Shown here piece after piece: positions 4,208 to 32,102 of a stretch of 38,744 bases of DNA. Source of the DNA: a virus. Location of the stretch: positions 1 to 38,744 of IMG/VR virus record IMGVR_UViG_3300042991_000318; one strand, written 5' to 3'. The position numbers and the translations under genes were made by a program. Numbering within the stretch: position 1 is the stretch's first letter; every line of letters starts with the position of its first letter. A model generated the notes under the pieces. It made no database searches, was not told the DNA's origin, and worked only from the letters and a program-made list of their open reading frames with translations.

Positions 4208-4369
4208 TTATAAATTATTTATTTTTTTAACTATAATTTTTTCAATATACTCAGAATAGTTTTCTATTCCATTATCTATACAATATTTCTCCCAAAGTTT
4301 ATAAACTTCAGGATTCATAGATATTGATACTCTCTTTCTTTTTTGTTCATCTTTAAGTGTCTTACGCAT
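4208..4369 (-). CDS. RHH DNA-binding protein, cassette A repressor-like (53 aa)
   Basis: A 53-residue protein: a basic N-terminal arm (DEQKRKR), the strand VSISMNP, then two helices (EVYKLWEKYC and NYSEYIEKIIVKK). This is a ribbon-helix-helix (CopG/Arc-type) fold, which binds DNA as a dimer. It diverges from a second RHH gene at 4502 across a 132-bp spacer. Near-copies lie at 31941-32102 (core EVYKLW.KYCIDNGIENYSEYIEKII almost identical) and 17753-17908, each in the same position relative to an RHH-nuclease pair. I infer that it represses the shared spacer. Confidence 0.8.
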   Translation of the reverse strand: MRKTLKDEQKRKRVSISMNPEVYKLWEKYCIDNGIENYSEYIEKIIVKKINNL

Positions 4370-4501
4370 ATTTATTTATATTTTTTTTATTTATTAAGTT
4401 TTAAAAATATGATATAAATCATAAAAATTATTATAATATTATTACAAAAATGTGAAGTTTTGACCTTTTAATATTTATATATAATAATAAAAATAGTTAG
4501 A
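4370..4501. promoter_or_regulatory. divergent control spacer of cassette A
   Basis: This 132-bp region separates two divergent RHH genes. On the plus strand, 4461-4483 carries TGACC, then AATATTTATATATA, the same 23-base layout found in cassettes B, C and D and upstream of other genes here. TATGAT and ATCATA (4408-4423) form a perfect inverted repeat with a 4-base gap, a plausible RHH operator. The promoter and operator roles are inferred. Confidence 0.55.
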
Positions 4502-4684
4502 ATGAAAAGAAAAGTTGAAAAAAAGAAAATAACATTTTCAATATCATTAGATCCAGAAATATTAAATATTATAAATGAATCTATCGGTAATAGATCAAAA
4601 TTTATACAAAATTGTATAATTGAAGAAATATCTAAAAGTTCAGAAATTAAAGATGAACTCATAAAAAAGAAAATTATTTTATGA
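4502..4684 (+). CDS. RHH regulator translationally coupled to endonuclease, cassette A (60 aa)
   Basis: The strand KITFSISLD is followed by helices around EILNIINESI and NRSKFIQNCIIEEI, a ribbon-helix-helix fold. The protein ends in KKKIIL, and its TGA stop overlaps the ATG of the endonuclease (ATGA, 4681-4684), so the two are translationally coupled. By hand alignment about 44 of 60 residues match the cassette C counterpart at 31622-31804; the cassette B counterpart at 18069-18248 is more distant but ends the same way. The gene is probably an autoregulator that limits nuclease production, by analogy with RHH antitoxins (inference). Confidence 0.82.
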   Translation: MKRKVEKKKITFSISLDPEILNIINESIGNRSKFIQNCIIEEISKSSEIKDELIKKKIIL

Positions 4685-5955
4685 AAAATTATTTAGAAAA
4701 ATGTAAACTTATTCATAATAATAAGTATGATTATTCATTATCAGATTTTAAAGGTTTACATTATAAGATAAAAATAATTTGTCCAGATCATGGCCCGTTT
4801 GAACAAAGATTGGATAGTCATTTAAAAGGTTCTGGTTGTAAACAATGTTATATAAAAAAAATAAAATTTGCTAAATATATAAATTCAACTGATTATCACA
4901 GTAACTTATGTAATCTAATTCATGAAAATAAATATGACTATTCATTATCAGAATTTAAAGGATTACACTATAAAATAAAAATAATTTGTTCAAAACATGG
5001 TATCTTTGAACAGAGATTAGATCATCACAAAAATGGTAAAATGTGTCCAAAATGTAAATATGATGAACGCAAATTAACTACACAAGAATTTATTAATAAA
5101 TCTATAGAAAAGCATGGTGATAAATATGATTATAGTTTATCTGAATATATAAATCATATGACAAAAGTTAAAATAATTTGTCCTACACATGGTATTTTTG
5201 AACAAACACCAAATAATCATTTATCTGGTAGCAAAAATGAAGGTTGTTGCGCAAAATGTAATAAAAGATATATTTATTCTAAAGATGAAATTATAGAAAA
5301 AGCTAATATAAAGCATAATAATAAATATGATTATTCTTTAATAGATTATAAAAATACTAAAGATAAAGTTAAAATAATTTGTCCAATACATGGTATTTTT
5401 GAACAAAATTTATCCCAACATTTATATAAAACAGGTTGTTCTAAATGTGATAAACCCATATTAAACACAGAACATTTTATAGAATTATCAAAAGCAAAAC
5501 ACAATAAATATGATTATTCTTTAATAGATTTTAAAAGTACTAAATATAAAGTTAAAATAATTTGTTCTATACATGGTATTTTTTTTCAATATCCATTACA
5601 TCACATTCAAGGGTGTGGTTGCCCAAAATGCTCAACAAGAAGTAAAGGAGAAGAAATAATTGAAAAATTTTTAATTGAAAATAATATAGATTATAACACA
5701 CAGCAAACATTTAAAAACTGTAAATATAAAAATTTATTAAGATTTGATTTTTATTTAATAAAATATAATATATGTATTGAATATGATGGTGAATTACATC
5801 ATAAAAGTATAAAATATTTTGGTGGAGACAATACATTAAAAGAAAATATAATTAAAGATAACATTAAAAATAATTATTGTGAGAACAATAATATTAAATT
5901 ATTAAGAATAAAATATACCGATAATATTATTGATAAATTAAAAACAATCATATAA
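4681..5955 (+). CDS. EDxHD/Vsr-like homing endonuclease with five zinc-ribbon repeats (424 aa)
   Basis: Residues 1-318 hold five repeats of about 60-70 residues built on NKYDYSL..., KIIC..HG.FEQ, and a terminal CxxC (DUF723-like DNA-binding repeats). The C-terminal 105 residues form a Vsr-like nuclease: SKGEE with Glu324/325, RFDFYL with Asp356, IEYDGELHH with Glu367, Asp369 and His373, then FGG and NNIKLLRI. This matches the EDxHD homing endonuclease family known from phages and from fractured split-intein genes. All the core residues are present, so it is probably active. It overlaps the upstream RHH gene by four bases. A three-repeat relative lies at 34004-34870. Confidence 0.85.
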   Translation: MKNYLEKCKLIHNNKYDYSLSDFKGLHYKIKIICPDHGPFEQRLDSHLKGSGCKQCYIKKIKFAKYINSTDYHSNLCNLIHENKYDYSLSEFKGLHYKIKIICSKHGIFEQRLDHHKNGKMCPKCKYDERKLTTQEFINKSIEKHGDKYDYSLSEYINHMTKVKIICPTHGIFEQTPNNHLSGSKNEGCCAKCNKRYIYSKDEIIEKANIKHNNKYDYSLIDYKNTKDKVKIICPIHGIFEQNLSQHLYKTGCSKCDKPILNTEHFIELSKAKHNKYDYSLIDFKSTKYKVKIICSIHGIFFQYPLHHIQGCGCPKCSTRSKGEEIIEKFLIENNIDYNTQQTFKNCKYKNLLRFDFYLIKYNICIEYDGELHHKSIKYFGGDNTLKENIIKDNIKNNYCENNNIKLLRIKYTDNIIDKLKTII

Positions 5956-5986
5956 AATAACTCTATATTAAATAAAAAATCATTTT

Positions 5987-7624
5987 ATGATTGAAGTTAA
6001 CGGTAAAAAAATTTTTTATGATTTAAAATATAAACCAAATGAGCAACAAATAGAAAGTCTAAATTTTATAAAAAATAGTATAACAACAGGTAAGAGATTT
6101 ATAATGAATAATTTAAGTACTGGAGTTGGAAAATCATACTTAATTATAATGTTTGCCAACTGGTACAGAAATTATATAAACACTAATGATGATGTTAAAA
6201 TAGACGTTCTTACTAATTCCAAGGTACTTCAAGAGCAATACCTAAAAGATTTTTCCTTTATTAAAAATTATAAAGGACAATCAAATTATTATTGTTCAAC
6301 ATATAATTGTGATTGCAAAACTGCTAGGGAATTATGTAAAATAATGAAAAATAAATGTAATTCATGTCCATATGATAATGCAAAAAATGCTTGGATAGAA
6401 AGTGAAATAGGATTAACAAATTTCCATTTATTTGACACGTTATCGTTATTTCAAAAAGATATATTAAAAAGAAGAAATGGCAATGTACTTGTAATTGATG
6501 AGTGTCAAACATTTGAACAAATTTTTTCATCTTATTTAAGTTCAAAATTAAGTGCTAAAAGTTTAAAAAAGTGTGGATTTAACATGAAAGAAATTGAAAC
6601 ACTTGATGATAGATTTATTTCAAAAATAAAATATTTGGATAAATATTTAGAATTTCTTGAAAGAAAATTAATACCCATGCTTGAAGAAAAACTTGAAAAA
6701 TTTGAAAAAGATATAAGCACATCAAAATCTAAAAATAAAATTGAAACTGTTAAATTTATACAAAACATTGATAATAAATTATTATCTTTTAAGCATCTAT
6801 TTGAATCTTATAAAAAAGAGCCAAATAATGTCATATTAGATATTAATGTAAATAAAAATGAAAAAATGTTTTCTGGTATCGAACTTATAACAGAACATGT
6901 TTTTGTAAACGAATATTTAAATGAATATATTTTTAGTCAATATGATCATATAATTTTTATGTCAGCAACAATTTTAGATAAACATTTATTTAGTTTTATT
7001 AATGGATTAGATGATAAACTATCAAGTTATTATGACATACCATCCCCGTTTTCTTTAAAAAATAGACAAATATATTATTTAAAAATTGGTAAAATGAATT
7101 ATTATAATAAAATTGAAACGTTTCAAAAACAAATACCTTGGATAAATAAAATTTTAGAAAAGTATAAAAATAGTAAAGGTATTATACACACAACAAATTA
7201 TGAAATTACCGAATGGATAAAAGATAATATTCAAAATGACAGATTATTGTTTCATGAAACAGACGATAGAAATGATATACTTGAAAAACATTTAACAAGT
7301 ATAGAACCGACAGTTTTAGTCAGTCCATCAATGATGGAAGGTATTTCTTTAGATGATGATTTAGCTAGATTTCAAATATTATTAAAAATAAATTATCCAA
7401 ATATATCATCAAATAAAATAAAAGCCAGACAAAAATTAAAACCAGAATGGTATTCTTGGATGGCGTGTGTAAATACTATACAATCTACTGGTAGAGGTGT
7501 TAGAAATGATAATGATTTTTGTGATACATTTATTCTTGATTCAAACTTTTCGGATTTATTGAAATATAATTCACATATGATACCAAAATATTTTACGGAC
7601 GCAATAAAAACATTAAAAATATAA
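5987..7624 (+). CDS. XPD/DinG-like superfamily 2 DNA helicase (545 aa)
   Basis: Walker A is STGVGKS (residues 44-50), motif II is VIDECQ (169-174), motif III is SAT (in FMSATILDKH) and motif VI is QSTGRGVR (499-506). Between motifs I and II lies a Cys-rich segment (Cys103, 108, 110, 117, 124 and 127) where XPD/DinG helicases carry a 4Fe-4S cluster. These enzymes unwind DNA 5' to 3' in repair and in resolving R-loops. DECQ in place of DEAH is a variation, but the Asp-Glu pair is kept. A long charged helical insert (about 180-290) follows motif II. It leads a run of small genes that may share its transcript. Confidence 0.8.
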   Translation: MIEVNGKKIFYDLKYKPNEQQIESLNFIKNSITTGKRFIMNNLSTGVGKSYLIIMFANWYRNYINTNDDVKIDVLTNSKVLQEQYLKDFSFIKNYKGQSNYYCSTYNCDCKTARELCKIMKNKCNSCPYDNAKNAWIESEIGLTNFHLFDTLSLFQKDILKRRNGNVLVIDECQTFEQIFSSYLSSKLSAKSLKKCGFNMKEIETLDDRFISKIKYLDKYLEFLERKLIPMLEEKLEKFEKDISTSKSKNKIETVKFIQNIDNKLLSFKHLFESYKKEPNNVILDINVNKNEKMFSGIELITEHVFVNEYLNEYIFSQYDHIIFMSATILDKHLFSFINGLDDKLSSYYDIPSPFSLKNRQIYYLKIGKMNYYNKIETFQKQIPWINKILEKYKNSKGIIHTTNYEITEWIKDNIQNDRLLFHETDDRNDILEKHLTSIEPTVLVSPSMMEGISLDDDLARFQILLKINYPNISSNKIKARQKLKPEWYSWMACVNTIQSTGRGVRNDNDFCDTFILDSNFSDLLKYNSHMIPKYFTDAIKTLKI

Positions 7625-7646
7625 ATAAAAAATAAATAAAAATTAT

Positions 7647-7901
7647 ATGAAAACACAAGAAGAGAATCCTAACGGATTACACAACAGATATTATGTATCT
7701 AAAGTTAACGGAGAAAAAGTTGATGAAAATGCTGAATATTTTATACTCAGATTAGATGAATATGGTAGTGATATTAATCATATAAAAGCATGTAGAAAAG
7801 CTATTATTACTTATGCAAATGAAATAAAAGAACATTTACCTATATTATCATCAGATTTAATTGAAAGATATGGAGAAGAATTAAAAACATTAAAAATATG
7901 A
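7647..7901 (+). CDS. hypothetical protein (84 aa)
   Basis: A small soluble protein starting MKTQEENPNGLHNRYYVSK, with a helical C-terminal half. No family was recognised. It starts 22 bases after the helicase and its stop overlaps the next start (ATGA, 7898-7901), which points to coupled translation within a helicase operon. The C-terminal LKTLKI echoes the end of the helicase (IKTLKI), which may be coincidence. Confidence 0.65.
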   Translation: MKTQEENPNGLHNRYYVSKVNGEKVDENAEYFILRLDEYGSDINHIKACRKAIITYANEIKEHLPILSSDLIERYGEELKTLKI

Positions 7902-8101
7902 ATGATAAAGAGAAATTACACAATATGGCAAGTTGTATGTTATCAATTTTAGATTCTCTAAAATTATTTGATACTGGTTCATTATATTTAGAAGATGAAA
8001 CTCTATCTGAAGTGATGTTCAGAAAAATGAAGGCATATGATATAGATTTAAATAAAGAATTAGGATTTACACATTTAAAACCAGTTAAGAAGAAAAAATA
8101 A
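7898..8101 (+). CDS. hypothetical protein (67 aa)
   Basis: A 67-residue helical protein with a basic tail (VKKKK). It overlaps the upstream gene by four bases and is followed seven bases later by another small gene. No family was recognised; real-gene status rests on the ATGA coupling and the operon layout. Confidence 0.6.
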   Translation: MNDKEKLHNMASCMLSILDSLKLFDTGSLYLEDETLSEVMFRKMKAYDIDLNKELGFTHLKPVKKKK

Positions 8102-8107
8102 AATACT

Positions 8108-8275
8108 ATGGCAAAAGATACAATAATTCCAGTAAAATTTGATAGAAAACTCACTATTAAGGAAATTGAAGCATTTTCTGATATTTTAGTTGAATTTGAA
8201 AAAGCAAATAACGTAACAGTAACAATTATAAGTATGAGTGCAGTAGCAAAACGTGTAAATAAATTAAAAAAATAA
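8108..8275 (+). CDS. hypothetical small protein (55 aa)
   Basis: A 55-codon gene (MAKDTIIPVKFDRKLTIKE...) starting six bases after the preceding stop, the last gene of the helicase run. The predicted fold is a strand, a helix (IKEIEAFSDILVEFEKA), a strand (VTVTII) and a basic C-terminal helix. The function is unknown. It ends five bases before the end of a convergent minus-strand gene. Confidence 0.55.
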   Translation: MAKDTIIPVKFDRKLTIKEIEAFSDILVEFEKANNVTVTIISMSAVAKRVNKLKK

Positions 8276-8280
8276 TACTA

Positions 8281-8577: not shown

Positions 8578-8710
8578 ATTAAGTTTTTTTTTATTTTATA
8601 TATTATTAAAAATAAAAAAAGTGCTATGTTTTTCAATTAATTAAATAATACTTTTTGGTTAAGAAACGATTAAAATAAAACTTTTTAAGAAATTCAAATT
8701 ATATAATTTT

Positions 8711-10611: not shown

Positions 10612-12405
10612 ATGATAAAAAAATCAATAGAGGAAAGATATAAAAAATTAACACCAAAGGAACACATATTAAAAAGACCTGGAATGTATATTGGAAATGT
10701 ATATACAGAACCAACTAAAATGTATGTTTTTGAAGATATTAATGAAATAAAAAGTAATAAATTTACAAATAAAACCGTAGAATATAATGCTGGATTTATA
10801 AAATTATATGATGAAGTATTAACTAATGCTTCTGATCATTATATTAGAACCAATCAAGTTAAATATATTAAAATAACAGTTGATAAGAATCATGTATCTA
10901 TTGAAAACGATGGTCCTGGTATACCAATTCAAATGCACAAAGATCATAAAATGTATGTACCAGAATTAATATTTGGCAATCTTATGTCAGGTGAAAATTT
11001 TGATGAAAATGATCAAAGAATGGTTGGTGGTCTCAACGGTCTTGGTACTAAATTAACTAACATATTTTCAAAAAAATTTATAGTAGAAACTTCTGATGGT
11101 AAAAAGAAATATACTCAAGAGTTTACAAATAATATGGAAGATAAAACTAAACCAAAAATAGTAAAATCTTCAAAAAATTATACTAAAATAACTTATTATC
11201 CAGATTTTGAAAAATTTGAATTAACTGAGATAACAGATGAAATTCAATCAATTTTTATAAAAAGAGCTATTGATATTGCTGCATATAGTCCTGGTGTTAA
11301 AGTATATTATAATGATATTCTTATTCCAATTAAAACATTTAAGGATTATATGAAAATGTTTATTGATGATAACGAAGAATTTTTTTATGAAAAAATAAAC
11401 GACAATTGGGAGATCGGCATATCACGTTCACCTAATGATATGTTTCAACAAGTATCTATGGTTAATGGAATTTCAACTCATGTTGGCGGTACACACGTTA
11501 ATTACATTTCTAATCAAATTGTTAGACTATTAGAATCTAAAATTAAAATCGCAACTGTCAAACATACAATGATTAAAAATCATCTTTTTTTGTTTTTAAA
11601 TTGTAGAATACCAAATCCATCATTTGAAACACAAACGAAAGAAAATTTAACAACAAAAATGATTTCTACTATCATTAAAGATGTTGAAGTTTCTGATGCT
11701 TTTATAAAAAAATTAATGACATCACAAATTAAAAATGATATTGTTAATTTTGCATCACTTAAAGAATTTCAAGAAGCAAAAAAATCCACACAAAACGGTC
11801 AAAAAGTTAAAATTAGAATTGCTAAATTAGATGATGCTAATAAAGCGGGTAAATCTCCTGATAATATGAGATGTCATTTATTTTTAACAGAGGGTGATTC
11901 GGCAGCAGCAACAGCTAAAAGAGGATTTTCAGTAACAGGTAATGATTACTTTGGTTTATTTCCACTTAAAGGTAAACCTTTAAATGTTAGAGATGTGACA
12001 TTACAAAAAATGAGAGAAGATGCTGAAATTTCAAATATAGTATCTGCTTTAGGTCTTGAATTTGGTAAAAAATATACATCAACAAGAACATTAAGATATG
12101 GAAAATTAGTTGTTATGAGTGATGCTGATTGCATTGATGGGGATACTTTTGTTTTAACTAAAAGAGGTTATGTAGAAATAAAAGATATTGATTACGAAGA
12201 TGAAGTTTTAACACATAATAATCATTGGAAAAAGGTAATAAAAATCATAGAAAAAAACAAAACAAATTGTATAAAATTAACTATAAATGGCATAGAATAT
12301 TGTTTTGGTAAAAATCATCAACTACCAATAGTAAGGAACGGTGAAGTTTTAATGATTTGTGCTGGAGATATATTAAAAACTGATAAAGTTTTAAAAAAAA
12401 AATAA
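10612..12405 (+). CDS. topoisomerase II N-terminal half (ATPase + TOPRIM) fused to N-intein (597 aa)
   Basis: Residues 1-506 are the GHKL ATPase, transducer and most of the TOPRIM domain of a type IIA topoisomerase: N-box EVLTNASD (Glu68, Asn72), DGPGIP (100-105), GGLNGLGTKLTN (139-150), TEGDSA with Glu427, PLKGKPLNV, and VVMSDAD with Asp504 and Asp506. From Cys507 the sequence becomes an intein N-fragment of 91 residues. The chain therefore stops in the middle of the DxDxD metal motif and cannot be a complete enzyme. The missing half is at 14181-16082. The likeness is to T4 gp39 and eukaryotic topoisomerase II rather than host gyrase. A TATATAAA element lies about 40 bases upstream. Confidence 0.92.
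   Translation: MIKKSIEERYKKLTPKEHILKRPGMYIGNVYTEPTKMYVFEDINEIKSNKFTNKTVEYNAGFIKLYDEVLTNASDHYIRTNQVKYIKITVDKNHVSIENDGPGIPIQMHKDHKMYVPELIFGNLMSGENFDENDQRMVGGLNGLGTKLTNIFSKKFIVETSDGKKKYTQEFTNNMEDKTKPKIVKSSKNYTKITYYPDFEKFELTEITDEIQSIFIKRAIDIAAYSPGVKVYYNDILIPIKTFKDYMKMFIDDNEEFFYEKINDNWEIGISRSPNDMFQQVSMVNGISTHVGGTHVNYISNQIVRLLESKIKIATVKHTMIKNHLFLFLNCRIPNPSFETQTKENLTTKMISTIIKDVEVSDAFIKKLMTSQIKNDIVNFASLKEFQEAKKSTQNGQKVKIRIAKLDDANKAGKSPDNMRCHLFLTEGDSAAATAKRGFSVTGNDYFGLFPLKGKPLNVRDVTLQKMREDAEISNIVSALGLEFGKKYTSTRTLRYGKLVVMSDADCIDGDTFVLTKRGYVEIKDIDYEDEVLTHNNHWKKVIKIIEKNKTNCIKLTINGIEYCFGKNHQLPIVRNGEVLMICAGDILKTDKVLKKK
12130..12402 (+). other. split intein, N-fragment
   Basis: Block A is CIDGDTFVLTKRGYVEIKDI, the standard start of a Hint domain, with catalytic Cys1. 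Block B is GIEYCFGKNHQLPIV, with the conserved His but Gly where Thr of TxxH usually stands. The fragment is 91 residues long, ends in a Lys-rich tail (KVLKKK) and stops, the normal break point for naturally split inteins. Confidence 0.92.
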
Positions 12406-12411
12406 ATAATT

Positions 12412-12666
12412 ATGAGGTATATTATAGCACAAAGAAAAAATGATAATGATGTTATTACACATGTTAAAATTGATTTAAACGAAGAAAAATTACCAAATAC
12501 TGATGCTACTAAACAACAAGTAATTGAAAGTATTAGATTAGGAAATAAATATAAAACAAAAATTAACAATTTGACATCTGATGTAAATGTTATTGATAAT
12601 AAATATCTTAGGAGTGATGGTAATAATACCAAATCTGACAATTTAGGTAATTTACCATCATTTTAA
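12412..12666 (+). CDS. DUF3892-like protein (84 aa)
   Basis: The 84-residue protein starts MRYIIAQRKNDNDVITHVKI and ends with NKYLRSDGNNTKSDNLGNLP, a pattern I associate with DUF3892, a small family of unknown function common in Bacteroidetes and phages. It begins six bases after the stop of the N-intein gene and so shares its transcript. It lies inside the gap between the topoisomerase halves and may be cargo brought in with the endonuclease. Its 3' end overlaps the end of the convergent endonuclease gene by four bases. Confidence 0.6.
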   Translation: MRYIIAQRKNDNDVITHVKIDLNEEKLPNTDATKQQVIESIRLGNKYKTKINNLTSDVNVIDNKYLRSDGNNTKSDNLGNLPSF

Positions 12667-13490
12667 AAAGTATTTCTGGAATTTTTCTTTGAATTATTAG
12701 TTCTTTTTGTAATACAAAGATTTTCAATAGATCCAATCACAATTGGATCTATTTCATTTTTAAATCCATATAAAACTGATATTTTATGATCTATTGTTGG
12801 AAACAATCTATCCTTTGATTCTAAGCACAAATTTTCTTTAATATCATCATAATCATAATAATCTAATCCATTCCATTCAGTATATAACTTTTTTTTATGT
12901 TTTCTTGTTTCAATACTTACTAATTTTCTATATTCTTGATATGTACTATAATTTTCATAATCAACCATAATACCTCTTAAAACTTTTGTTTTATTTGTTT
13001 TTTTAATAGTTTCATCTATTTTTGACATAAATTTAGACAATATAGTATCGTTTTGATATGAATATTTTACACCATATCTTTCTATCATAGTGTCATAAGA
13101 TTTTAGTTTAATAATTTCATTAGACTGACAAGATTTATTGCCATATCTTTCTATATTTGTTTTTTCTTGTTTTGTTTTAATGTCTGGATGCTGACTACTA
13201 ACACAACCATAATTATTTTTAAAAGTATTCATCATTTTATCAACAGCGCATTTTCTACTACAACAATATTCTTCAGTATTTAATTTAGTATTTTTAACAT
13301 ATTTATAATAACCTAATTCTTTTTCATATTTACATATATCACATTTAACTCTTATTTTTATATGACTGAATTTTGGTAAATCTTCAATTAAAATTTTTAC
13401 GGTTTTTTGACTAATATCATAACCTTTACTAACAAGATGAGATTTATTTTTATTACTCACATTAAATAATATTTCTGTGTCTAAAATCAT
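12663..13490 (-). CDS. HNH-type homing endonuclease in the split-intein gap (275 aa)
   Basis: The N-terminal zinc module has Cys50, Cys53, Cys76/77 and Cys81. Repeats of the type ERYGVKYSYQN (about 95-150) follow, the same DNA-binding module as in the endonucleases at 20713 and 30783. The C-terminus is HNH-like: PTIDHKISVLYGF (Asp234, His235), ENLCI (Asn257), then RTNNSKKN (Asn265/266). It is transcribed against the topoisomerase genes. Its position between the intein halves matches known fractured genes, where a free-standing endonuclease cuts uninterrupted alleles to spread the split intein. The family usually seen there is Vsr-like, so an HNH enzyme is a variation. Confidence 0.8.
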   Translation of the reverse strand: MILDTEILFNVSNKNKSHLVSKGYDISQKTVKILIEDLPKFSHIKIRVKCDICKYEKELGYYKYVKNTKLNTEEYCCSRKCAVDKMMNTFKNNYGCVSSQHPDIKTKQEKTNIERYGNKSCQSNEIIKLKSYDTMIERYGVKYSYQNDTILSKFMSKIDETIKKTNKTKVLRGIMVDYENYSTYQEYRKLVSIETRKHKKKLYTEWNGLDYYDYDDIKENLCLESKDRLFPTIDHKISVLYGFKNEIDPIVIGSIENLCITKRTNNSKKNSRNTF

Positions 13491-13625
13491 AAAATAATTT
13501 CTTTTTTAATAACACACGTTTTTAATATACTTATATATTAATATATTTTGATTCATTTTAGTATATTATACTGTTAAATTAATGTTAATTTTAATTTTTA
13601 AATATATAATTAAATAAAAATGTAT

Positions 13626-13633
13626 TATATTTG
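13626..13633 (+). promoter_or_regulatory. Bacteroidetes -7 promoter element (TATATTTG)
   Basis: TATATTTG fits TAnnTTTG and lies 23 bases before the ATG at 13657. The -33 region is A/T-rich without a clear TTG, so this is a partial match. Confidence 0.45.
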
Positions 13634-13656
13634 AACAAAATATAAAATTAAAAATT

Positions 13657-14043
13657 ATGAAAAAATTATTATTACTATTAACTATTCTGTTTTATTTTAA
13701 TGTAAATTCTCAAACAATAGAAGAAAAAAAACGCACAGTTGACATGTTAGTAAATGATATTGTTGAAATCACAGATGGTTATATTAAAGTAAGCAAAGTT
13801 GAAAAAGATAATTATATTGTTATATCAATATTACCAAATTTTTACGATGAAGAATTACTTATAGTGACTATAAATACTTATTTAAAAAAATACAGTAATA
13901 TAACCACTGCGGCATGGAAAAGGGATGAAGATTATAAATGGCTATATAAGTTAATAATAATAAAAGACCAACCATATACAATTATTTATATTGAAAAATC
14001 ACATTTTTTAATGGTTAGTACATCAATAAATAAGATAAAGTGA
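13657..14043 (+). CDS. secreted hypothetical protein (128 aa)
   Basis: MKKLLLLLTILFYFNVNSQT is a typical flavobacterial signal peptide, probably cleaved before or after the Ser-Gln. The mature part (about 108 residues) alternates strands and helices, with no family recognised. The gene has its own host-type promoter element and lies within the topoisomerase gap, after the endonuclease and before the C-intein gene. It seems unrelated to splicing and is probably cargo or a host-modifying protein (inference). Confidence 0.7.
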   Translation: MKKLLLLLTILFYFNVNSQTIEEKKRTVDMLVNDIVEITDGYIKVSKVEKDNYIVISILPNFYDEELLIVTINTYLKKYSNITTAAWKRDEDYKWLYKLIIIKDQPYTIIYIEKSHFLMVSTSINKIK

Positions 14044-14093
14044 TATTCTATTTTTTTTAAACCATTCAATCTTCTTTTTATATATAAAAATAA

Positions 14094-14118
14094 TGAGACA
14101 ATATATAAATAAGTCTCA
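14094..14118 (+). promoter_or_regulatory. inverted repeat around a TATAAATA promoter-like box
   Basis: TGAGAC (14094-14099) and GTCTCA (14113-14118) form a 6-bp inverted repeat enclosing AATATATAAATAA. TATAAATA is the T4-type late promoter sequence. It lies about 65 bases before the C-intein gene, suggesting that the second topoisomerase half has its own, possibly regulated, promoter. Confidence 0.4.
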
Positions 14119-14128
14119 ATGCTGCACG

Positions 14129-14155
14129 TTCAATATTGGATAACCACATATTGAA
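14129..14155 (+). promoter_or_regulatory. 8-bp hairpin in the leader of the C-intein gene
   Basis: TTCAATAT (14129-14136) and ATATTGAA (14148-14155) pair perfectly around an 11-base loop, 25 bases before the ATG at 14181. It may be an RNA leader structure or an operator. No poly-T follows directly, so a terminator is less likely. Confidence 0.4.
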
Positions 14156-14180
14156 TTTTTATAAAAATAAATGAATAAGG

Positions 14181-14330
14181 ATGCAAATAAATCTTAATGA
14201 TTATGATGTTTTAGATATTGATAATATTACAACTGAATTGAAAAATACAACAATGTATGATATTGAAGTTGAAGATGATAACACATTTTTTATATCTAAA
14301 AACAAAACAGATAATATTTTAGTTCATAAT
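14181..14330 (+). other. split intein, C-fragment
   Basis: These 50 codons end in block F (MYDIEVEDDNTFFIS) and block G (NILVHN), with the penultimate His and terminal Asn needed for Asn cyclisation. The next residue is Cys (codon 14331-14333), the +1 nucleophile. The His usual in block F is replaced (DDNTF rather than a ..HNF type). The extein resumes as CDGSHIKGL. Confidence 0.92.
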
Positions 14331-16082
14331 TGTGATGGCTCACATATAAAAGGCTTAATTATAAATCTAATAGATACTTATTGGCCAGAATTATTAGAAA
14401 TGGATTTTATTTATGAATTTATTACACCTATTGTTAAAATTGAAAAAGGCACAAAAATTAAATATTTTTATAGAATTCAAGATTATCAAAAATGGAAGGA
14501 AAATCCAAAACCTGGACATTTCATAAAATGGATAAAAGGACTTGGTACAATTGAACCAAAAGAATCAAAATTATTTTTTAAAGATATATCAAAACATTTA
14601 ATTAGATTTAATGCATCTGATATAAAAGCAGAACGAAATTTAATTGATTTGGCATTTAAGAAAAAAAGAGCAGATGATAGAAAAAATTGGTTACTTAACT
14701 ATACACCTGGTATTGAATTAGATAAATTTAAAATTAAACAAACATATAAATCATTTTTTGATAATGAATTTATTGAATATAGTATGTCAGATAATATAAG
14801 ATCAATACCTTCAATGGTAGATGGTTTGAAACCATCACAAAGAAAAATTCTCTACACTTTATTTAAAAGAAAATTTAAGAATGAAGTTAAAGTTGAATTA
14901 TTAATGGGTTCTATTTTAGAATTATCTGCTTATCATCATGGACCAAAATCGTTAGAAACAACTATAGTTGGTATGGCACAAAATTTTGTTGGATCCAATA
15001 ATATAAATTTATTAAAACCAAAAGGAGAGTATGGTACAAGATCTAAAGGTGGATCTGATGCATCAGCAAGTAGATACATATTTACTAACATAGAAGATAT
15101 AACAAGAAATATTTTTCAACAGGAAGATGATGAAATATTAGAATATTTAACTGATGATGGTTACCAAGTAGAACCAAAATACTATGCACCAATAATACCA
15201 ATGGTATTAGTTAATGGCTCTGATGGTATTGGTACAGGTTGGAGTAGTTATGTACCACAATTTAATCCCACTGATATTATTACATATATTGAAAATAAAT
15301 TAAAAGAAGTAAAAAAACAAATAAAATTAACACCTTGGTTTAAAGGTTTCAAAGGTGAAATTTTAGAAGATTTAAATAATAGTAGATACATTTCGAGAGG
15401 TATATTCAAAAAACTACCTAAAAATAAGTTAAATATTTTAGAATTACCTATTTATACTTGGAATGATAATTATTATAAATTTCTTGATAAATTAATTGAT
15501 GATAAATATATTAAAGACTATGATAAATATTGTACAGATGAAAATGTAAATATTGTTATAACCATACCAGAAGAAACATTTGAAACGTTAACAGATGATA
15601 TAATTATTAATAAATTTAATCTTGAATCATATATTAATATGAATAATATGAATTTATTTGATGAAAATGGTAAAATTTATTATTATAAAGATCAATATGA
15701 TATTATAGATAAATTTATAAATTTAAGAATAAAATATTATGAATTAAGAAAACAGAATCTTTTAAATAAACTTGAAATTCAAAAGAAATATACTATAAAT
15801 AAAATGAAATTTATAAATTGTATATTAAAAAAGGAAATTATATTTGAAAATAAAACAAAAGATAATATCATAAAGCAAATAGAATTAAAAAGTATTGAAA
15901 AACACAATGAGAGTTATGATTATTTAATTAACACATCATTGATAAGTTTATCAAAAGAAAAACTATTAGAATTAAAAGAGCAATTTAATAAAATTAAAAT
16001 TGAAATTGAAAATATAAAATCTATAACTGAAATTCAAATGTGGTTAAATGAATTATCTCAATTAAAAAATAAATTAAAATAA
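14181..16082 (+). CDS. C-intein fused to topoisomerase II C-terminal half (TOPRIM end + DNA cleavage domain) (633 aa)
   Basis: After the 50-residue C-intein, the extein begins CDGSHIKGLIINLI, completing the TOPRIM motif left open at DAD in the gene at 10612. The breakage-reunion domain follows: MVDGLKPSQRKILYTLF, AYHHGP, GTRSKGGSDASASRYIFT with the catalytic Tyr299 next to Arg, and NGSDGIGTGWSS. The C-terminal part has coiled-coil helices. Spliced, the enzyme would be about 506 + 583 = 1089 residues, the size of single-chain viral or eukaryotic topoisomerase II, which joins the roles of T4 gp39 and gp52. ATG 14181 is chosen because the whole C-intein follows it. Confidence 0.92.
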   Translation: MQINLNDYDVLDIDNITTELKNTTMYDIEVEDDNTFFISKNKTDNILVHNCDGSHIKGLIINLIDTYWPELLEMDFIYEFITPIVKIEKGTKIKYFYRIQDYQKWKENPKPGHFIKWIKGLGTIEPKESKLFFKDISKHLIRFNASDIKAERNLIDLAFKKKRADDRKNWLLNYTPGIELDKFKIKQTYKSFFDNEFIEYSMSDNIRSIPSMVDGLKPSQRKILYTLFKRKFKNEVKVELLMGSILELSAYHHGPKSLETTIVGMAQNFVGSNNINLLKPKGEYGTRSKGGSDASASRYIFTNIEDITRNIFQQEDDEILEYLTDDGYQVEPKYYAPIIPMVLVNGSDGIGTGWSSYVPQFNPTDIITYIENKLKEVKKQIKLTPWFKGFKGEILEDLNNSRYISRGIFKKLPKNKLNILELPIYTWNDNYYKFLDKLIDDKYIKDYDKYCTDENVNIVITIPEETFETLTDDIIINKFNLESYINMNNMNLFDENGKIYYYKDQYDIIDKFINLRIKYYELRKQNLLNKLEIQKKYTINKMKFINCILKKEIIFENKTKDNIIKQIELKSIEKHNESYDYLINTSLISLSKEKLLELKEQFNKIKIEIENIKSITEIQMWLNELSQLKNKLK

Positions 16083-17752: not shown

Positions 17753-17908
17753 TTATTTCAACTTTTCTATAATTATTTTTTCAAAATATTCTGAATAATT
17801 TTCTATTTCATTTTTTTCACAATATTTAACCCACAATTCATATACTCTTGGATCAATTGAAAATGATACTTTCTTTCTTTTTTGCTCATCTGATATTTTT
17901 TTTCTCAT
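17753..17908 (-). CDS. RHH DNA-binding protein, cassette B repressor-like (51 aa)
   Basis: MRKKISDEQKRKKVSFSIDP is followed by RVYELWVKYC and IENYSEYFEKIIIEK, an RHH fold with the same basic arm and helix pattern as the proteins at 4208-4369 and 31941-32102. It diverges from the RHH-GIY-YIG pair at 18069-18982 across a 160-bp spacer. The position and likeness across three cassettes are the main support for both gene reality and a repressor role. Confidence 0.78.
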   Translation of the reverse strand: MRKKISDEQKRKKVSFSIDPRVYELWVKYCEKNEIENYSEYFEKIIIEKLK

Positions 17909-18068
17909 AAAAAAATTTTTTTCTAAAATATAGAAAAAATAAATTAAAAAGTTTTTAATTATTTTGCGTTGATTATCAATTATTTATAACTAATGGTATA
18001 TTTTCAGCATAAAAATGGTAAATTATGACTTTATTTTATTTATATATACTATAAAATAAATTATTATT
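17909..18068. promoter_or_regulatory. divergent control spacer of cassette B
   Basis: The plus-strand box at 18026-18048 reads TGACT, then TTATTTATATATA, in the same 23-base frame as in cassettes A and C. TTGAT and ATCAA around one base (17969-17979) form an inverted repeat sharing GAT/ATC half-sites with the candidate operator of cassette A. The roles are inferred. Confidence 0.5.
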
Positions 18069-18248
18069 ATGAGAACACCGAAGAAAAATAAAAAAATCAC
18101 AATTTCAATTTCATTAGATGTTAATGTTTTTAATCTAATTAATAACTTTTCAAACAAATCAAAATTTTTAGAAAATTGTGCTATTGAAGAACTATGTAAA
18201 GATGTAGAATTCAAAAATGAACTAAAAAATAAAAAAATTATATTATGA
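18069..18248 (+). CDS. RHH regulator coupled to endonuclease, cassette B (59 aa)
   Basis: The strand KITISISLD and a helix pattern ending SKFLENCAIEELCKD mark an RHH protein related to those at 4502-4684 and 31622-31804. It ends with the same NKKIIL and overlaps the GIY-YIG gene by ATGA (18245-18248). It has 59 codons. The conservation of the coupling with a wholly different nuclease is the notable point. Confidence 0.8.
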   Translation: MRTPKKNKKITISISLDVNVFNLINNFSNKSKFLENCAIEELCKDVEFKNELKNKKIIL

Positions 18249-18982
18249 AACTAAAATGGACACATGAAAAATGTAGAGAAGAAGCTTTAAAATATAACAC
18301 TAAAATAGATTTTAAAAATAATTGTAAATCTGCTTATAGGTCAGCATTAAAAAATAAATGGAAAGATGAAATTTGTTCACACATGATAAACGTTGGGCAT
18401 AAATATAAAAGATGTATATATGCATTTGAATTTTCAAATAATTATGTTTATGTTGGGTTAACATACAATGCAAATAAAAGAAAAAATGAACATTTAATAG
18501 ATAAAAATAGTCAAGTATATAAATATATCACACTAACAAAAATAGAACCAATTTTTTATAAACTCACAGACTATATAGATGTAGAGGAAGCTAAAATAAA
18601 AGAAGAAGAATTTATAAAAAGATATAAAAAAGAAAATTGGAACATATTAAATAAAGCAAAGTCTGGTGGATTAGGAACTGGTTCAATTTTTTATAGTAGA
18701 GAAAAATGCTTAGAATTAGCATTAAAATACACTAAAGCTTCTGAATTTGCTAAAAACAACTCATCTGCTTATTCATCTGCACAAAAACATAAATGGTTAG
18801 ATGAGATATATTCACATATGGAAAATATAAATCATTCACCAGGATATTGGACAAAAGAAAATTGTCAAATAGAAGCACTAAAATATAAAACTCGAACTGA
18901 ATATGCTAAAAATAATATGTCAGCATATAATAAGTCTATAAAAGAAAAATGGATAGATGATATTTGTAAACATATGAATTAA
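18245..18982 (+). CDS. GIY-YIG homing endonuclease flanked by DNA-binding repeats, cassette B (245 aa)
   Basis: The GIY-YIG catalytic domain lies in the middle: CIYAFEF (57-63), VYVGLTY (68-74), a downstream Arg in NKRKNEH (79), the Glu-rich helix AKIKEEEF, and NILNKAKSGG. Three copies of a 44-residue module (CREEALKY..., KNN.SAY..A.K.KW.DEI.SHM) sit at about 3-46, 149-192 and 201-244 and probably bind DNA. A C-terminal array with a central nuclease is a compact homing endonuclease design. Its last four bases overlap the end of the convergent gene at 18979. Confidence 0.82.
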   Translation: MKLKWTHEKCREEALKYNTKIDFKNNCKSAYRSALKNKWKDEICSHMINVGHKYKRCIYAFEFSNNYVYVGLTYNANKRKNEHLIDKNSQVYKYITLTKIEPIFYKLTDYIDVEEAKIKEEEFIKRYKKENWNILNKAKSGGLGTGSIFYSREKCLELALKYTKASEFAKNNSSAYSSAQKHKWLDEIYSHMENINHSPGYWTKENCQIEALKYKTRTEYAKNNMSAYNKSIKEKWIDDICKHMN

Positions 18983-25104: not shown

Positions 25105-25121
25105 TTTATAAATCCTGCATA

Positions 25122-25144: not shown

Positions 25145-25155
25145 CTAATAAAAAC

Positions 25156-26052: not shown

Positions 26053-26067
26053 ATTCATCATTAAAAA

Positions 26068-26097: not shown

Positions 26098-26123
26098 TAC
26101 TTCAAATTAAATATTTATTAATT

Positions 26124-26381: not shown

Positions 26382-26392
26382 AAAAATTAATT

Positions 26393-28165: not shown

Positions 28166-28167
28166 AT

Positions 28168-28197
28168 AAAAAAGGTCAGATAATTCTGACCTTTTTT
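28168..28197. terminator. bidirectional intrinsic terminator
   Basis: AAAAAAGGTCAGA and TCTGACCTTTTTT form a 13-bp stem with a TAAT loop, between two convergent genes. Confidence 0.92.
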
Positions 28198-28201
28198 ATT
28201 T

Positions 28202-28948
28202 CTAATTTCTATTATTAATTATAATTTCTCTTTTTTTATTGTAAAATATTATTCTATGACCCCACCTTTCACCTTTTAAATATTTATAATAATATTCTTT
28301 AAATTTAGCCAAATCACCTTTAATAGCAGCGTTACCATTAGCAAAGAATTTTATTTCAATTTTTCCAATATTTATCCAATCACCAACCTTTCTCTCATTA
28401 AAGTCTATACAATCCTCATTAAAAATAAGATAATATAATCTTTTAAATTCCCAACTTTTATACTCACCAAAATTAATCTTTATCAAGTTTTTATCCAAAT
28501 CATATACATGTACACTCTCATAAGACTTGAAAACACTTTCATCTTTAATATCGTATTTAGTTTTAAATTTAAACCATTCTAATACATCTTTTTCGCTAGG
28601 TCTACTAAAAGATGGTGTCTTTCCTAATGAATCCTCTTTAATATAAAATGTATTTAAATACTCTAATACTTTATCATCAACTCCAAATTTAGAGAAAAAT
28701 TGGTCTGCTAATTTTTTAGCTTCATCATAATCATCCAAATTATGAATTTTTGTTTTAAAAGAATCATCATATTTGACACCAAGTTTATTACTATCAAATA
28801 AAATAGAATCCACTTTTCTACGATGAAACTCATAATCGCTCTGATGTCCAAACCCCTGGGATTCTAAAAATTTTAAAAGTATTTTTAAGTCAGACTTATT
28901 TTTTATTTTTAATTTACTTAAAGATTCCGATAAATTTTGTTCGCTCAT
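28202..28948 (-). CDS. hypothetical protein (248 aa)
   Basis: A charged alpha/beta protein of 248 residues with a helical N-terminus (MSEQNLSESLSKLKIKNKSD) and a C-terminal part rich in strands (RWGHRIIFYNKKREI). No family was recognised. On its strand TTTTTTAATATATATAAAA (about 28969-28986) lies 22-40 bases upstream, shared with the divergent gene at 29000. Confidence 0.7.
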   Translation of the reverse strand: MSEQNLSESLSKLKIKNKSDLKILLKFLESQGFGHQSDYEFHRRKVDSILFDSNKLGVKYDDSFKTKIHNLDDYDEAKKLADQFFSKFGVDDKVLEYLNTFYIKEDSLGKTPSFSRPSEKDVLEWFKFKTKYDIKDESVFKSYESVHVYDLDKNLIKINFGEYKSWEFKRLYYLIFNEDCIDFNERKVGDWINIGKIEIKFFANGNAAIKGDLAKFKEYYYKYLKGERWGHRIIFYNKKREIIINNRN

Positions 28949-28999
28949 TTAAAATGTATATTTTATTTTTTATATATATTAAAAAACTAAATTACTTTT

Positions 29000-29392
29000 A
29001 TGTTGGACAAATATAATAAATTTATAAATAATAATATAATATTAGAAGGTGGAAGTTCAAGTAATCCAGAAATTATATATTGGAATAAACAAATGAACGA
29101 AATAAAAAATGATACTTGGTTAGATTTTTCAATTGATGTATATTCACGTACAGATAAAATTTATTATATAAATTTTAAAACTCAAAAATCAGAATATAAT
29201 TATTATAGAGTTCTACTTATAAGCACACCAGGTAAAGATACATATACATTAGAAGATTCATCATTTTTCGTTAAAAAATTTTACACGGAATTTTGGAAAA
29301 ATGCTGCAGAGTATATTAAAAATTTTAAATATAAACCAAAATGCTTAGGCGATTTAAGTCATGTTGAGGCATCAACTAAATATAACATGTAA
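29000..29392 (+). CDS. hypothetical protein (130 aa)
   Basis: A 130-residue soluble protein (MLDKYNKFINNNIILEGGSS...) with several aromatic residues and no recognised family. Its upstream region holds TTTTTTATATATATT (about 28965-28980), the common promoter-like motif. It diverges from the gene at 28948. It is followed after 66 bases by a gene with its own TATAAATA-type box. Confidence 0.65.
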   Translation: MLDKYNKFINNNIILEGGSSSNPEIIYWNKQMNEIKNDTWLDFSIDVYSRTDKIYYINFKTQKSEYNYYRVLLISTPGKDTYTLEDSSFFVKKFYTEFWKNAAEYIKNFKYKPKCLGDLSHVEASTKYNM

Positions 29393-29458
29393 AAATATTT
29401 CAGTTTTAACCCTCTACATTTAATATATAAATAAAATTCAAAAAACAAAAGAATTAAA

Positions 29459-30793
29459 ATGACTCAAATAATTAAATTAAACGAACAACCTGACAATCTT
29501 ATCAACACATTAAAGGATAAAGAATTAATTGTATATGAAGATGTACAAGGCTCACAAATATTTGTAAGATGGAATGGATCAAAATTTGTAATAAAACCAA
29601 AATCAATAAGTAGTATAGAATTAAATTTTGTAGATTTAGCTATACAAAAATTTTACAATCAAGTTTTTCAGTATTTACACACATTACCTGATTATATTAC
29701 TAATCTATTATCAACTAATTGGTGGTTTTGTTTTGAGTATTTTCCTGATAATCAACCAGCACATATTGAATATGCAAAACTACCTAAAAATAACCTTATA
29801 TTAACTTGCATTGTCAAAGGAACAAGATATAAATATAATTATAATGAAATTATAGAATATGCAAAATTGTTTAATGTTGATCATTTACCTATTATATTTA
29901 GAGGTAAATTAAATGAAAAACAATTAGAAATAATTAATTTATTTTTACACACATCAGAAGAAGATTTAGAATATGTTTTTGGTGAAAATAACTTTGCTTA
30001 TTTCTTTTACAAAATATTAAATCCAAAAATTGAAAATTCATTTCTAATGGACGACTTTAATGATAATATGGAGAAAATAATAATAAGAATTAGTGGCAAC
30101 GATGAATATTCATTTGAAATTTTAAATCCATATTATGAAAAAATGAAATTGGATAACAAAACTGAATATTTAGAAACATATTCATTAATATTATTGAACT
30201 TTTTAGAATTTTTGCAATTAATAAACTATGATAAACTAAAATTAAAAGAAATAACTAAAGATGAATTATATATTGAATTAATATCAACAGTTTTTAATGA
30301 ATATATTGATAATATTAAGAAAGATTTAAAAAACTGGAATTTATCTATTCCATCCTTTTTCACAAATGATAAATTTAGAATCAACACATTTTTATTAAAA
30401 AATAATAATACTATTGATTTAATAAAATCGGACACTAAAATTGAATATATTTTCAAATTAGTATTAAGCTCATTTAATAAGAAAAAGAAAAAGCCAATTG
30501 GTATATTTAATGAAAAAACAACAGAATTGTTTAATAAAGAGGTGAATAAAATATCAGATTTTATAGAACAAGTATTAAAAATAAACAGAGAATATTTATT
30601 AAGAAATAATGATTTATTAAATTTTAAAGATTATTTTAATGTTAATTATAATACAGATTCTCAAAATATGATATATCCCGATGTGGATCAAATATTAGAT
30701 GAAATACCAGGTGAAGAAAAGAAAAAGAAGCCAACTACACTTAAAAAAGGTGGAGTATCAGAATATGAAGAAATAAAAAAACCTATAAAATAG
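29459..30793 (+). CDS. possible nucleotidyltransferase-fold (RNA ligase-like) protein (444 aa)
   Basis: The N-terminal half resembles the RNA ligase/nucleotidyltransferase fold: ELIVYEDVQGSQIFVRW sits where motif I (KxDGS) would be, and WWFCFEYFP...HIEYAKLPKNNLIL resembles motifs III/IIIa (GEY..., YDRLPKN). However, Asp stands where the nucleophilic Lys of motif I should be, so if the likeness is real the enzyme may be inactive or use another Lys. The C-terminal half is helical, ending in a Lys-rich tail (EEKKKKPTTLKKGG). A TATAAATA-containing motif lies at 29418-29434. The fold assignment is tentative. Confidence 0.4.
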   Translation: MTQIIKLNEQPDNLINTLKDKELIVYEDVQGSQIFVRWNGSKFVIKPKSISSIELNFVDLAIQKFYNQVFQYLHTLPDYITNLLSTNWWFCFEYFPDNQPAHIEYAKLPKNNLILTCIVKGTRYKYNYNEIIEYAKLFNVDHLPIIFRGKLNEKQLEIINLFLHTSEEDLEYVFGENNFAYFFYKILNPKIENSFLMDDFNDNMEKIIIRISGNDEYSFEILNPYYEKMKLDNKTEYLETYSLILLNFLEFLQLINYDKLKLKEITKDELYIELISTVFNEYIDNIKKDLKNWNLSIPSFFTNDKFRINTFLLKNNNTIDLIKSDTKIEYIFKLVLSSFNKKKKKPIGIFNEKTTELFNKEVNKISDFIEQVLKINREYLLRNNDLLNFKDYFNVNYNTDSQNMIYPDVDQILDEIPGEEKKKKPTTLKKGGVSEYEEIKKPIK

Positions 30794-31625
30794 ATATAAA
30801 ATTTGAATAATCTTTATTTATAATAAAAATAAAATTAAAACCACCATTTATAGCGGCGTTCTTTTTAGCTTCATTTTGTTCCTTTTCACACTCATACGTA
30901 TAATTACTTTTAATTTCTACTATTAAGTTATAATCTGGTAAATAATAATCAGGAAAATATTTTTTATTACTATTATTAAAAATATAATCAATAGATTTAG
31001 CATTCTCAATTAATATTTTATTATGAAAATTTTTAATAAAATCCAATTCGTATGTTCCTCTATATAAATATCCTTTATATTCTTTTAACTTGTGTGCTGA
31101 TTTTTGAACTTTTTGAAATATCTCATCGTTTTGTAATGGATTTTCAACACCATAATTTTTTAAACATGTTTCTATTTTTTTATTTTTTATTTCTTCGTTT
31201 TGAGATGGGTTTTCAACACCATATTTTTCTAAATTTGTTTGTTTTATTTTTTTCTTTGTATCATCACACATCAAATTTGTTATAAAACCATATTTTTCTA
31301 AATATACTTTTTCTCTTTTTTTTAAAACATGTTTATTTTGTAATGGTGAATTACCACCATATCTATTTAAATTTGTTTTATTTGTTTTAATTCTACAACA
31401 TTTATTGCAATAAATTATATCATTTTTTAATAAATTTCTATACATTGTATATTTTTCAACACAACAAATATCACATTGATATTTAACAATAGTATGTGAC
31501 GAACATGATAAATCATTAACATCAATTTCAATCTTATCACCAACACTACCATTATATCCTAATTTTTTATATTTTATAATGTTTTTTAAATTTAAATTAA
31601 TTTCAACCTTTTCCGTTAATATCAT
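30783..31625 (-). CDS. PD-(D/E)XK homing-type endonuclease, cassette C (280 aa)
   Basis: A zinc module (CDICC, then YCNKCC) and repeats with core KYGVENPSQN (about 85-170) form the DNA-binding part. The nuclease core is TYELDF (Glu193), PDYYLPDYNLIVEIKS (Asp231, Glu237, Lys239) and FIFIINKDYS. It is related to the enzyme at 20713-21588 and differs entirely from the nucleases of cassettes A and B. Its start overlaps the stop of the RHH gene (ATGA, 31622-31625). Its 3' end overlaps the convergent gene at 29459 by 11 bases, so the cassette is wedged tightly between neighbours. Confidence 0.8.
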   Translation of the reverse strand: MILTEKVEINLNLKNIIKYKKLGYNGSVGDKIEIDVNDLSCSSHTIVKYQCDICCVEKYTMYRNLLKNDIIYCNKCCRIKTNKTNLNRYGGNSPLQNKHVLKKREKVYLEKYGFITNLMCDDTKKKIKQTNLEKYGVENPSQNEEIKNKKIETCLKNYGVENPLQNDEIFQKVQKSAHKLKEYKGYLYRGTYELDFIKNFHNKILIENAKSIDYIFNNSNKKYFPDYYLPDYNLIVEIKSNYTYECEKEQNEAKKNAAINGGFNFIFIINKDYSNFISIL

Positions 31626-31804
31626 AGTATAATTTTCTTATTTTTTAATTCTTCTTTAATTTCCCAATTTTTACATATCTCCTCTATTATGCAATTTTGT
31701 ATAAATTTTGATCTATTTGCTATAGTATTATTTATAATATATAATAATTCAGCATCTAATGTTATTGAAAATGTTATTTTCTTTTTTTCTATTTTCTTTC
31801 TCAT
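31622..31804 (-). CDS. RHH regulator coupled to endonuclease, cassette C (60 aa)
   Basis: KKKITFSITLD, ELLYIINNTI and NRSKFIQNCIIEEI mark the same RHH protein as at 4502-4684 (about 44 of 60 residues identical by hand alignment), with the same KKIIL ending and ATGA overlap with the nuclease. The strong conservation next to an unrelated nuclease suggests that the RHH is the stable core of the cassette and the nuclease is exchangeable. Confidence 0.82.
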   Translation of the reverse strand: MRKKIEKKKITFSITLDAELLYIINNTIANRSKFIQNCIIEEICKNWEIKEELKNKKIIL

Positions 31805-31940
31805 AATAAATTTATTTTATTCTATATATAAATATTTAGAAGTCAAAAAGTATCAATTTTATAATTATTTTATAATAATTTATGTGTTTAATAACATATT
31901 AAACAAAATATTAAATTTTTACTATATAAAAATAAAAAGC
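31805..31940. promoter_or_regulatory. divergent control spacer of cassette C
   Basis: The minus-strand box at 31823-31845 reads TGACTT, then AATATTTATATATA, aligned with cassettes A and B. GTTTAAT and ATTAAAC around five bases (31886-31904) form a perfect 7-bp inverted repeat, a candidate operator. The spacer is 136 bp, close to the 132 bp of cassette A. Confidence 0.55.
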
Positions 31941-32102
31941 GTGGTTAGAAAAACTGTACCAGAAGAAAAAAAACGTAAACGAGTTTCAGTTGCTATAAAT
32001 CCCGAAGTTTATAAACTTTGGAAGAAATATTGTATAGATAATGGAATAGAAAATTATTCTGAATATATAGAAAAAATTATTATAAATAAAGTATCAAATT
32101 AA
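31941..32102 (+). CDS. RHH DNA-binding protein, cassette C repressor-like (53 aa)
   Basis: The start is taken as the GTG at 31941 because it gives MVRKTVPEEKKRKRVSV, matching the cassette A protein (MRKTLKDEQKRKRVSI); the frame is open further upstream but that would run through the control spacer. The core NPEVYKLW and NYSEYIEKII is almost identical to 4208-4369. It diverges from the RHH-nuclease pair and ends two bases before the end of the next convergent gene. Confidence 0.75.
   Translation: MVRKTVPEEKKRKRVSVAINPEVYKLWKKYCIDNGIENYSEYIEKIIINKVSN

Follow-up and report, generated by a model that had tools for sequence, protein, structure and literature searches.

The IMG/VR virus record IMGVR_UViG_3300042991_000318 (positions 1 to 38,744), a 38.7-kb (38,744-nt) fragment referred to here as the window, carries three cassettes, A, B and C, in which two small ribbon-helix-helix (RHH) genes, RHHb and RHHa, diverge from a common spacer, and RHHa is followed by a nuclease gene that differs from one cassette to the next. 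We regard these cassettes as probable free-standing homing endonuclease genes, each under a portable module of two genes for transcriptional control, in which the RHH pair would repress and the nuclease would cleave and drive homing. In large phages, the RHH pair is apparently a portable switch that helps selfish cutters to insert beside important genes without excessive harm. The RHHa stop codon and the nuclease ATG overlap as ATGA in A, B and C alike, and cassette C is the mirror image of the other two. Their components are the following:

4208..4369, minus strand: RHHb A, 53 amino acids (open reading frame; the RHHb family profile matches SvtR/NikR/CopG)
4370..4501, no strand: divergent control spacer A, 132 bp (promoter-like box TGACCTTTTAATATTTATATATA at 4461-4483, plus strand)
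4502..4684, plus strand: RHHa A, 60 amino acids (open reading frame, identity to B and C, AlphaFold2 model)
4681..5955, plus strand: nuclease A, DUF723/DUF4379 repeats and a Vsr-like C-terminal domain (5' of a 545-amino-acid helicase gene at 5987)
17753..17908, minus strand: RHHb B, 51 amino acids (open reading frame, identity to A and C)
17909..18068, no strand: divergent control spacer B, 160 bp (box TGACTTTATTTTATTTATATATA at 18026-18048, plus strand, matching the consensus exactly)
18069..18248, plus strand: RHHa B, 59 amino acids (open reading frame, identity to A and C)
18245..18982, plus strand: nuclease B, GIY-YIG domain and repeated homing-type DNA-binding repeats (phrog_20046)
30783..31625, minus strand: nuclease C, DUF7487 and a PD-(D/E)XK-type motif (profile match and motif)
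31622..31804, minus strand: RHHa C, 60 amino acids (open reading frame, identity to A and B)
31805..31940, no strand: divergent control spacer C, 136 bp (box TGACTTCTAAATATTTATATATA at 31823-31845, minus strand)
31941..32102, plus strand: RHHb C, 53 amino acids, GTG start (open reading frame, identity to A and B)

A preliminary description of this DNA had reported three recurring cassettes with homologous RHH proteins and three different kinds of nuclease, and all of this holds: the cassettes lie where it placed them, with the layout and the ATGA overlaps it gave, RHHa is identical at 44 of 60 positions between A and C (73%; 54% between A and B), RHHb is 65-75% identical among the three, and the enzymes are Vsr-like (A), GIY-YIG (B) and of a type carrying a PD-(D/E)XK motif (C). 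The arrangement was followed through 2.9 million viral contigs, scanned by pattern plus tblastn with RHH queries only, and by profile searches of whole records. These contigs are metagenomic fragments, and near-duplicates were merged only when their RHH proteins were identical; starting from RHH queries biases the sampling toward cassettes, not toward nuclease-bearing ones. The searches yielded 52 distinct divergent RHHb/RHHa pairs, a recurrence that excludes a chance arrangement. A homing-type nuclease or its remnant lies 3' of RHHa in 51 of the 52 (47 intact nuclease open reading frames, one GTG-started GIY-YIG frame and three decayed remnants), the remaining pair being cut by the contig end. 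Intact nuclease genes start between -29 and +7 nt from the RHHa stop, most commonly at -4. A 53rd cassette, on L171, stands outside the count, as its over-extended open reading frame made the script miss RHHa, and the 243 kb locus W01 was left out for want of RHHa. A search of bacterial genomes with the A4 query returned no RHHb relative, and the matches in INPHARED are confined to the duplicate 735-kb huge-phage records LR756501/LR756503.

RHH genes occurring without nucleases, which would speak against a dedicated module, are rare, the cases being L231, which has RHHb alone, and L180, which is rearranged. At L231 (3501-4425), RHHb stands directly before a DUF1848-like gene, the same kind of gene that follows the RHHb of cassette S, and RHHa and the nuclease are gone; the lone RHHb is possibly the scar of a lost cassette. 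At L180 (2502-5412), an RNA-ligase site, the nuclease is divergent from RHHa, a Dam-like methyltransferase gene comes after RHHa, and RHHb is found further downstream. At two other loci (L141/L142 and L099), a DUF7487 nuclease without RHHa points away from an RHHb-like gene in the divergent layout, suggesting that one regulator may suffice.

The evidence that carries our reading is the constancy of the module beside a changing nuclease. RHHa and RHHb distances are strongly correlated (Mantel r=0.874, n=24; maximum of 5000 permutations, 0.487), also inside sub-groups of the 24-cassette set (p=0.0006 and below) and over all 52 pairs (r=0.749; largest permutation, 0.15). At the DNA level, cassettes D and H share RHHb (0.77), spacer (0.83) and RHHa (0.85), whereas identity falls to the shuffled level in the first 180 nt of the nuclease (0.58 vs. 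0.58) and past the RHHb stop (0.56 vs. 0.57); pairwise DNA comparison gave the same pattern in other pairs, the homology block being exactly RHHb-spacer-RHHa. Sister RHH pairs are joined to unrelated nucleases, as in R (Vsr) and S (TnpB), with support 97/90, and in W (GIY-YIG) and Y (HNH), with support 100/96; likewise, RHHa proteins about 70-80% identical accompany unrelated enzymes in C/D, F/H, Q/V and E/G. The converse also occurs: the GIY-YIG enzymes of F and G are related (50% identity) and both stand beside dnaK, yet their RHH pairs belong to different clades. On the RHH tree, nuclease labels require 13 changes, vs. 14.4 when shuffled, and RHH ancestry predicts nuclease class only weakly. 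The earlier proposal that the RHH pair is a portable unit able to pick up different nucleases is thus borne out by the co-evolution of the pair, by the block ending at the nuclease start and by the sister pairs with unrelated nucleases.

The nucleases extend the preliminary description, since they belong to homing endonuclease families, as indicated by GIY-YIG, NUMOD, LAGLIDADG_3, HNH- and Vsr-type domains and by PHROG matches to "homing endonuclease"; recurrent sites at conserved genes and cassettes facing outward into their neighbours are likewise additions to it. By similarity and Pfam/PHROG matches, the cassettes comprise Vsr/DUF723 enzymes (16), GIY-YIG with homing-type repeats (11), GIY-YIG with NUMOD (7), DUF7487-HNH (5), DUF7487-PD-(D/E)XK (4), DUF7487 of unassigned catalytic type (3), HNH/other types (4) and TnpB (1), the catalytic type of DUF7487 proteins being assigned from motifs read by eye. 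Within the window, nuclease A matches Vsr (1cw0) at its C-terminus with a probability of 0.99 but E=0.11, the GIY-YIG domain of nuclease B has E=3e-4, just under the Pfam cut-off, and nuclease C matches DUF7487 (E=2e-34), after which a PD...EIK motif was recognised by eye. The enzyme of cassette S is a TnpB, with a TnpB / Cas12f1-like C-terminal domain (PF07282, E=1e-13; phrog_506, E=2e-53), and that of L171 is a LAGLIDADG_3 enzyme (E=3e-8). On L098 (3114-4597), a TnpB gene is coupled to RHHa, with RHHb divergent; no adjacent TnpA was found around it, nor a known guide RNA by Rfam.

RHHa and RHHb are most likely paralogous RHH proteins, for which sequence comparison predicts DNA binding. The RHHb profile (24 sequences) matches solved RHH proteins, namely the archaeal virus repressor SvtR (2kel, E=2e-5), NikR (2bj1, E=3e-4) and CopG (E=0.07); the RHHa profile is weaker, its best match being the viral RHH protein 4aai (E=0.045), and the two families detect one another by hidden Markov models in both directions. 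The AlphaFold2 model of RHHa places helices at 18-27 and 31-43, where RHH helices are expected, and adds a C-terminal helix; the model is too small for fold comparison and gave no match to known folds by Foldseek or VIA-align. Purifying selection acts on both genes (dN/dS 0.04-0.38). The window also encodes, at 36756-37121, a conserved protein of 121 amino acids (up to 279 in relatives) with an N-terminal RHH-like domain and no link to a nuclease, preceded by the same promoter-like box as the cassettes.

This box, TGACTTT-N4-TATTTATATATA, is located some 20 bp upstream of the RHHa gene. It has 6 matches in the window, vs. 0.74 expected, a number reached by none of 100 shuffles, and in the records examined all exact (0-mismatch) matches precede RHH-nuclease genes. 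RHHa and the nuclease would be placed on one transcript, and the nuclease would be translated by coupling at the ATGA overlap, which would hold it below RHHa; with such coupling, RHHa would be made ahead of the nuclease from every transcript. RHHa and RHHb would then most likely act back on the common spacer, binding it and repressing, or timing, both promoters, so that the cutter stays low. As a module of this kind would act on promoters and not on one enzyme, recombination could join any homing nuclease to it. A small regulator and homing-nuclease pair without RHH is also present in the window (33844-34870), and serves as a comparator:

33872..34870, plus strand: 42-amino-acid helix-turn-helix-like gene (33872-34000), then immediately a DUF723-type nuclease (34004-34870); the same box stands at 33844-33866

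Unrelated nucleases are found at the same conserved gene recurrently across cassettes. The site 5' of a helicase gene of about 544-545 amino acids is occupied by A and J (both Vsr) and by I and K (both GIY-YIG); a split-intein topoisomerase site by Q (HNH) and X (DUF723/CapR type), both with the RHH pair; a radical-SAM-like gene by M (DUF7487-HNH) and P (NUMOD-type); and an M42-peptidase-like gene by GIY-YIG and Vsr cassettes. Occupied and empty states were compared at base level for one site, that of the helicase, which is empty in L108 and occupied in L100 and L101 (L109, L110 and L119 also have this site without a cassette). In L108 (genome G002), a 43-amino-acid gene is divergent from the helicase gene, with 81 bp between them; in L100 (genome G008), cassette I stands between the same two genes, and homology stops at the start of the small gene and resumes about 40 nt before the helicase ATG. 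From these limits, about 50 bp of native intergenic DNA, presumably a divergent promoter, have been replaced. The right-hand boundary of cassette A is the same as that of cassette I: CTATATTAAA. At the other end, RHHb is followed by a co-oriented neighbour gene at -25 to +60 nt in 32/52, often with an ATGA overlap, the neighbours including polB and the C-terminal half of a topoisomerase. A cassette would insert by homing at conserved phage genes and replace the native intergenic promoter region, and its outward RHHb arm, with the nuclease arm opposite, would carry transcription into the neighbours.

The topoisomerase site has a counterpart in the window. At 10612-16082, a type II topoisomerase gene is in two parts with intein-like halves, the first ending ...CAGDILKTDKVLKKK and the second beginning MQINLNDYDVLDI...VHNCDGSH, and an HNH-type nuclease lies on the opposite strand between them, in a "fractured gene" arrangement; this nuclease is a further comparator:

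12663..13490, minus strand: DUF7487-HNH nuclease between the halves of the split-intein topoisomerase gene, without an RHH pair

On L010 (4556-8021), intein-like halves split the large terminase gene and enclose a nuclease-like open reading frame (6743-7702); this phage has an RHH cassette as well. In two phages (L088 and L096), polB seems to stop early (at about 494 amino acids) and a nuclease lies beside the break. Neither Rfam families nor tRNA genes were found in the window.

Several observations weigh against our reading. An RHH pair is missing from many, indeed most, of the homing nucleases of these genomes: the window alone encodes seven or more homing-type nucleases within its 38.7 kb (at 4681, 12663, 18245, 20713, 25156, 30783 and 34004), with the pair at only 3, and the nuclease at 12663..13490, which has neither an RHH gene nor a remnant of one nearby, is 68.7% identical to the RHH-paired enzyme of cassette Q at the same gene. 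Since related nucleases do without it, the module is optional, and at some loci just one of the two RHH genes is present. The TATTTATATATA core also occurs upstream of ordinary phage genes, so the box is probably the phage's own promoter type; a promoter specific to the cassettes was accordingly rejected in favour of a general phage promoter. No operator was recognised in the spacers that would back repression, or the safe nuclease level proposed in the preliminary description; their inverted repeats are barely above shuffles (2/23 at p<0.05; combined p=0.02), and conserved inverted repeats were therefore not accepted as operators. Finally, the nearest RHH neighbour carries the same nuclease class in 17/51 cases, vs. 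8.5 +/- 3.2 when shuffled; with this weak residual clustering, strict independence of nuclease and RHH does not quite hold.

Among other explanations, RHHa could be a partner subunit of the nuclease, targeting it or controlling its activity by protein contact, with RHHb as an accessory. RHHa is always directly before the nuclease, usually overlapping it, and its modelled third, C-terminal helix could touch a partner; nonetheless, with close RHHa relatives beside unrelated enzymes, one surface would need to suit enzymes of many kinds, the nucleases already have DNA-binding parts of their own in the homing-type repeats and NUMODs, and the two loci with RHHb divergent from a nuclease have no RHHa, so we consider this role unlikely. 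RHH folds are common among type II antitoxins, and the antitoxin-first, overlapping gene order would also suit a toxin-antitoxin or addiction unit in which the RHH proteins neutralise a toxic nuclease, as the antitoxin-led analogy of the preliminary description implied. That analogy fails in that RHHa does not follow nuclease class: the antitoxin-toxin co-evolution typical of type II systems is missing, RHH ancestry being nearly independent of the nuclease, and the partner enzymes come from homing endonuclease families and turn up repeatedly at the same conserved genes, the topoisomerase site having a relative (69% identical) that lives without any RHH gene or remnant. An addiction unit is somewhat more doubtful than a subunit, and both roles are disfavoured because the RHHa-nuclease matching they predict is not seen.

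Marginally less probable again is that the RHH proteins of a resident phage repress homing cassettes that share their RHH type and are brought in by a co-infecting phage, with RHH types diverging to escape. Diverged RHH pairs do coexist in single genomes (three in the window, five in G002), but cassettes A and C of the window have close pairs (73-75% identical). As for coincidence, single-RHH and helix-turn-helix genes do precede nucleases in these phages, and unrelated small RHH regulators might have been recruited separately beside nucleases; such independent recruitment is excluded by the correlation of RHHa and RHHb distances (Mantel r=0.87) and by DNA homology running through RHHb, spacer and RHHa, leaving coincidence as the least credible explanation. 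The reading as homing endonuclease genes under a portable RHH control module is the one retained here.

The kind of element is known, and what appear to be new are the RHH control module and the swapping of nucleases. The RHHb family profile relates it to RHH / MetJ-Arc regulators (SvtR, CopG, NikR and the Arc-like phage repressors), from which the cassettes differ in having divergent paralog pairs devoted to exchangeable homing nucleases. In C-protein controlled restriction-modification, a small DNA-binding protein encoded upstream of the nuclease gene times expression; the cassettes share that gene order, but lack a methyltransferase partner, use RHH and not helix-turn-helix proteins, and carry homing-type nucleases. 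Dassa et al. reportedly described in 2009 "fractured genes" in which split inteins accompany a free-standing nuclease; the window topoisomerase and cassettes Q and X likewise sit between split-intein gene halves, whereas Q and X add the RHH pair, and the X nuclease is unlike that of Q at the same gene. No dedicated exchangeable RHH pair with homing endonucleases was found in the papers searched, a negative of little weight given incomplete open-access coverage.

The closest parallels come from T4-like phages (Seg, Mob) and ICP1, whose free-standing homing endonuclease genes adjoin conserved or essential phage genes (PMC2988022, PMC10448857). These genes resemble the cassettes in placing GIY-YIG, HNH and other enzymes beside conserved genes, in displacing native promoters in some cases, in their overlapping starts and in domain shuffling, but the accessible text of these reports mentions no dedicated two-gene RHH module (PMC2988022, PMC10448857). 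Seven T4 free-standing genes are described there as promoter-less cassettes, and overlapping genes are argued to give low-frequency reinitiation of T4 nucleases (PMC2988022). T4 intron nucleases repress themselves at operators in their own promoters, the I-TevI operator overlapping its late promoter (PMC2988022). A DNA-binding function on the element's own promoter keeps a homing endonuclease low in I-TevI and, putatively, in the cassettes; the difference is that I-TevI represses itself, whereas in the cassettes two separate RHH proteins would do so, whatever the nuclease type.

As a bolder and more tentative proposal, to which we give somewhat less than even chances, the RHHb-spacer-RHHa block may be an evolving regulatory module that captures any homing nuclease, from LAGLIDADG enzymes to RNA-guided TnpB, and rewires the local promoter until the phage depends on the cassette for an important gene. 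The usual picture of a homing endonuclease is that of a lone selfish gene whose control is ad hoc; a control module that remained the same beside nucleases of about six superfamilies would account for the tolerance of large phages to many simultaneous cutters. The cassettes also offer a natural matched series for studying the regulation of homing, with different nucleases at the same site and related nucleases that either have or lack the module, and the RHH pair is a searchable tag for homing nucleases, including phage TnpB outside an obvious transposon.

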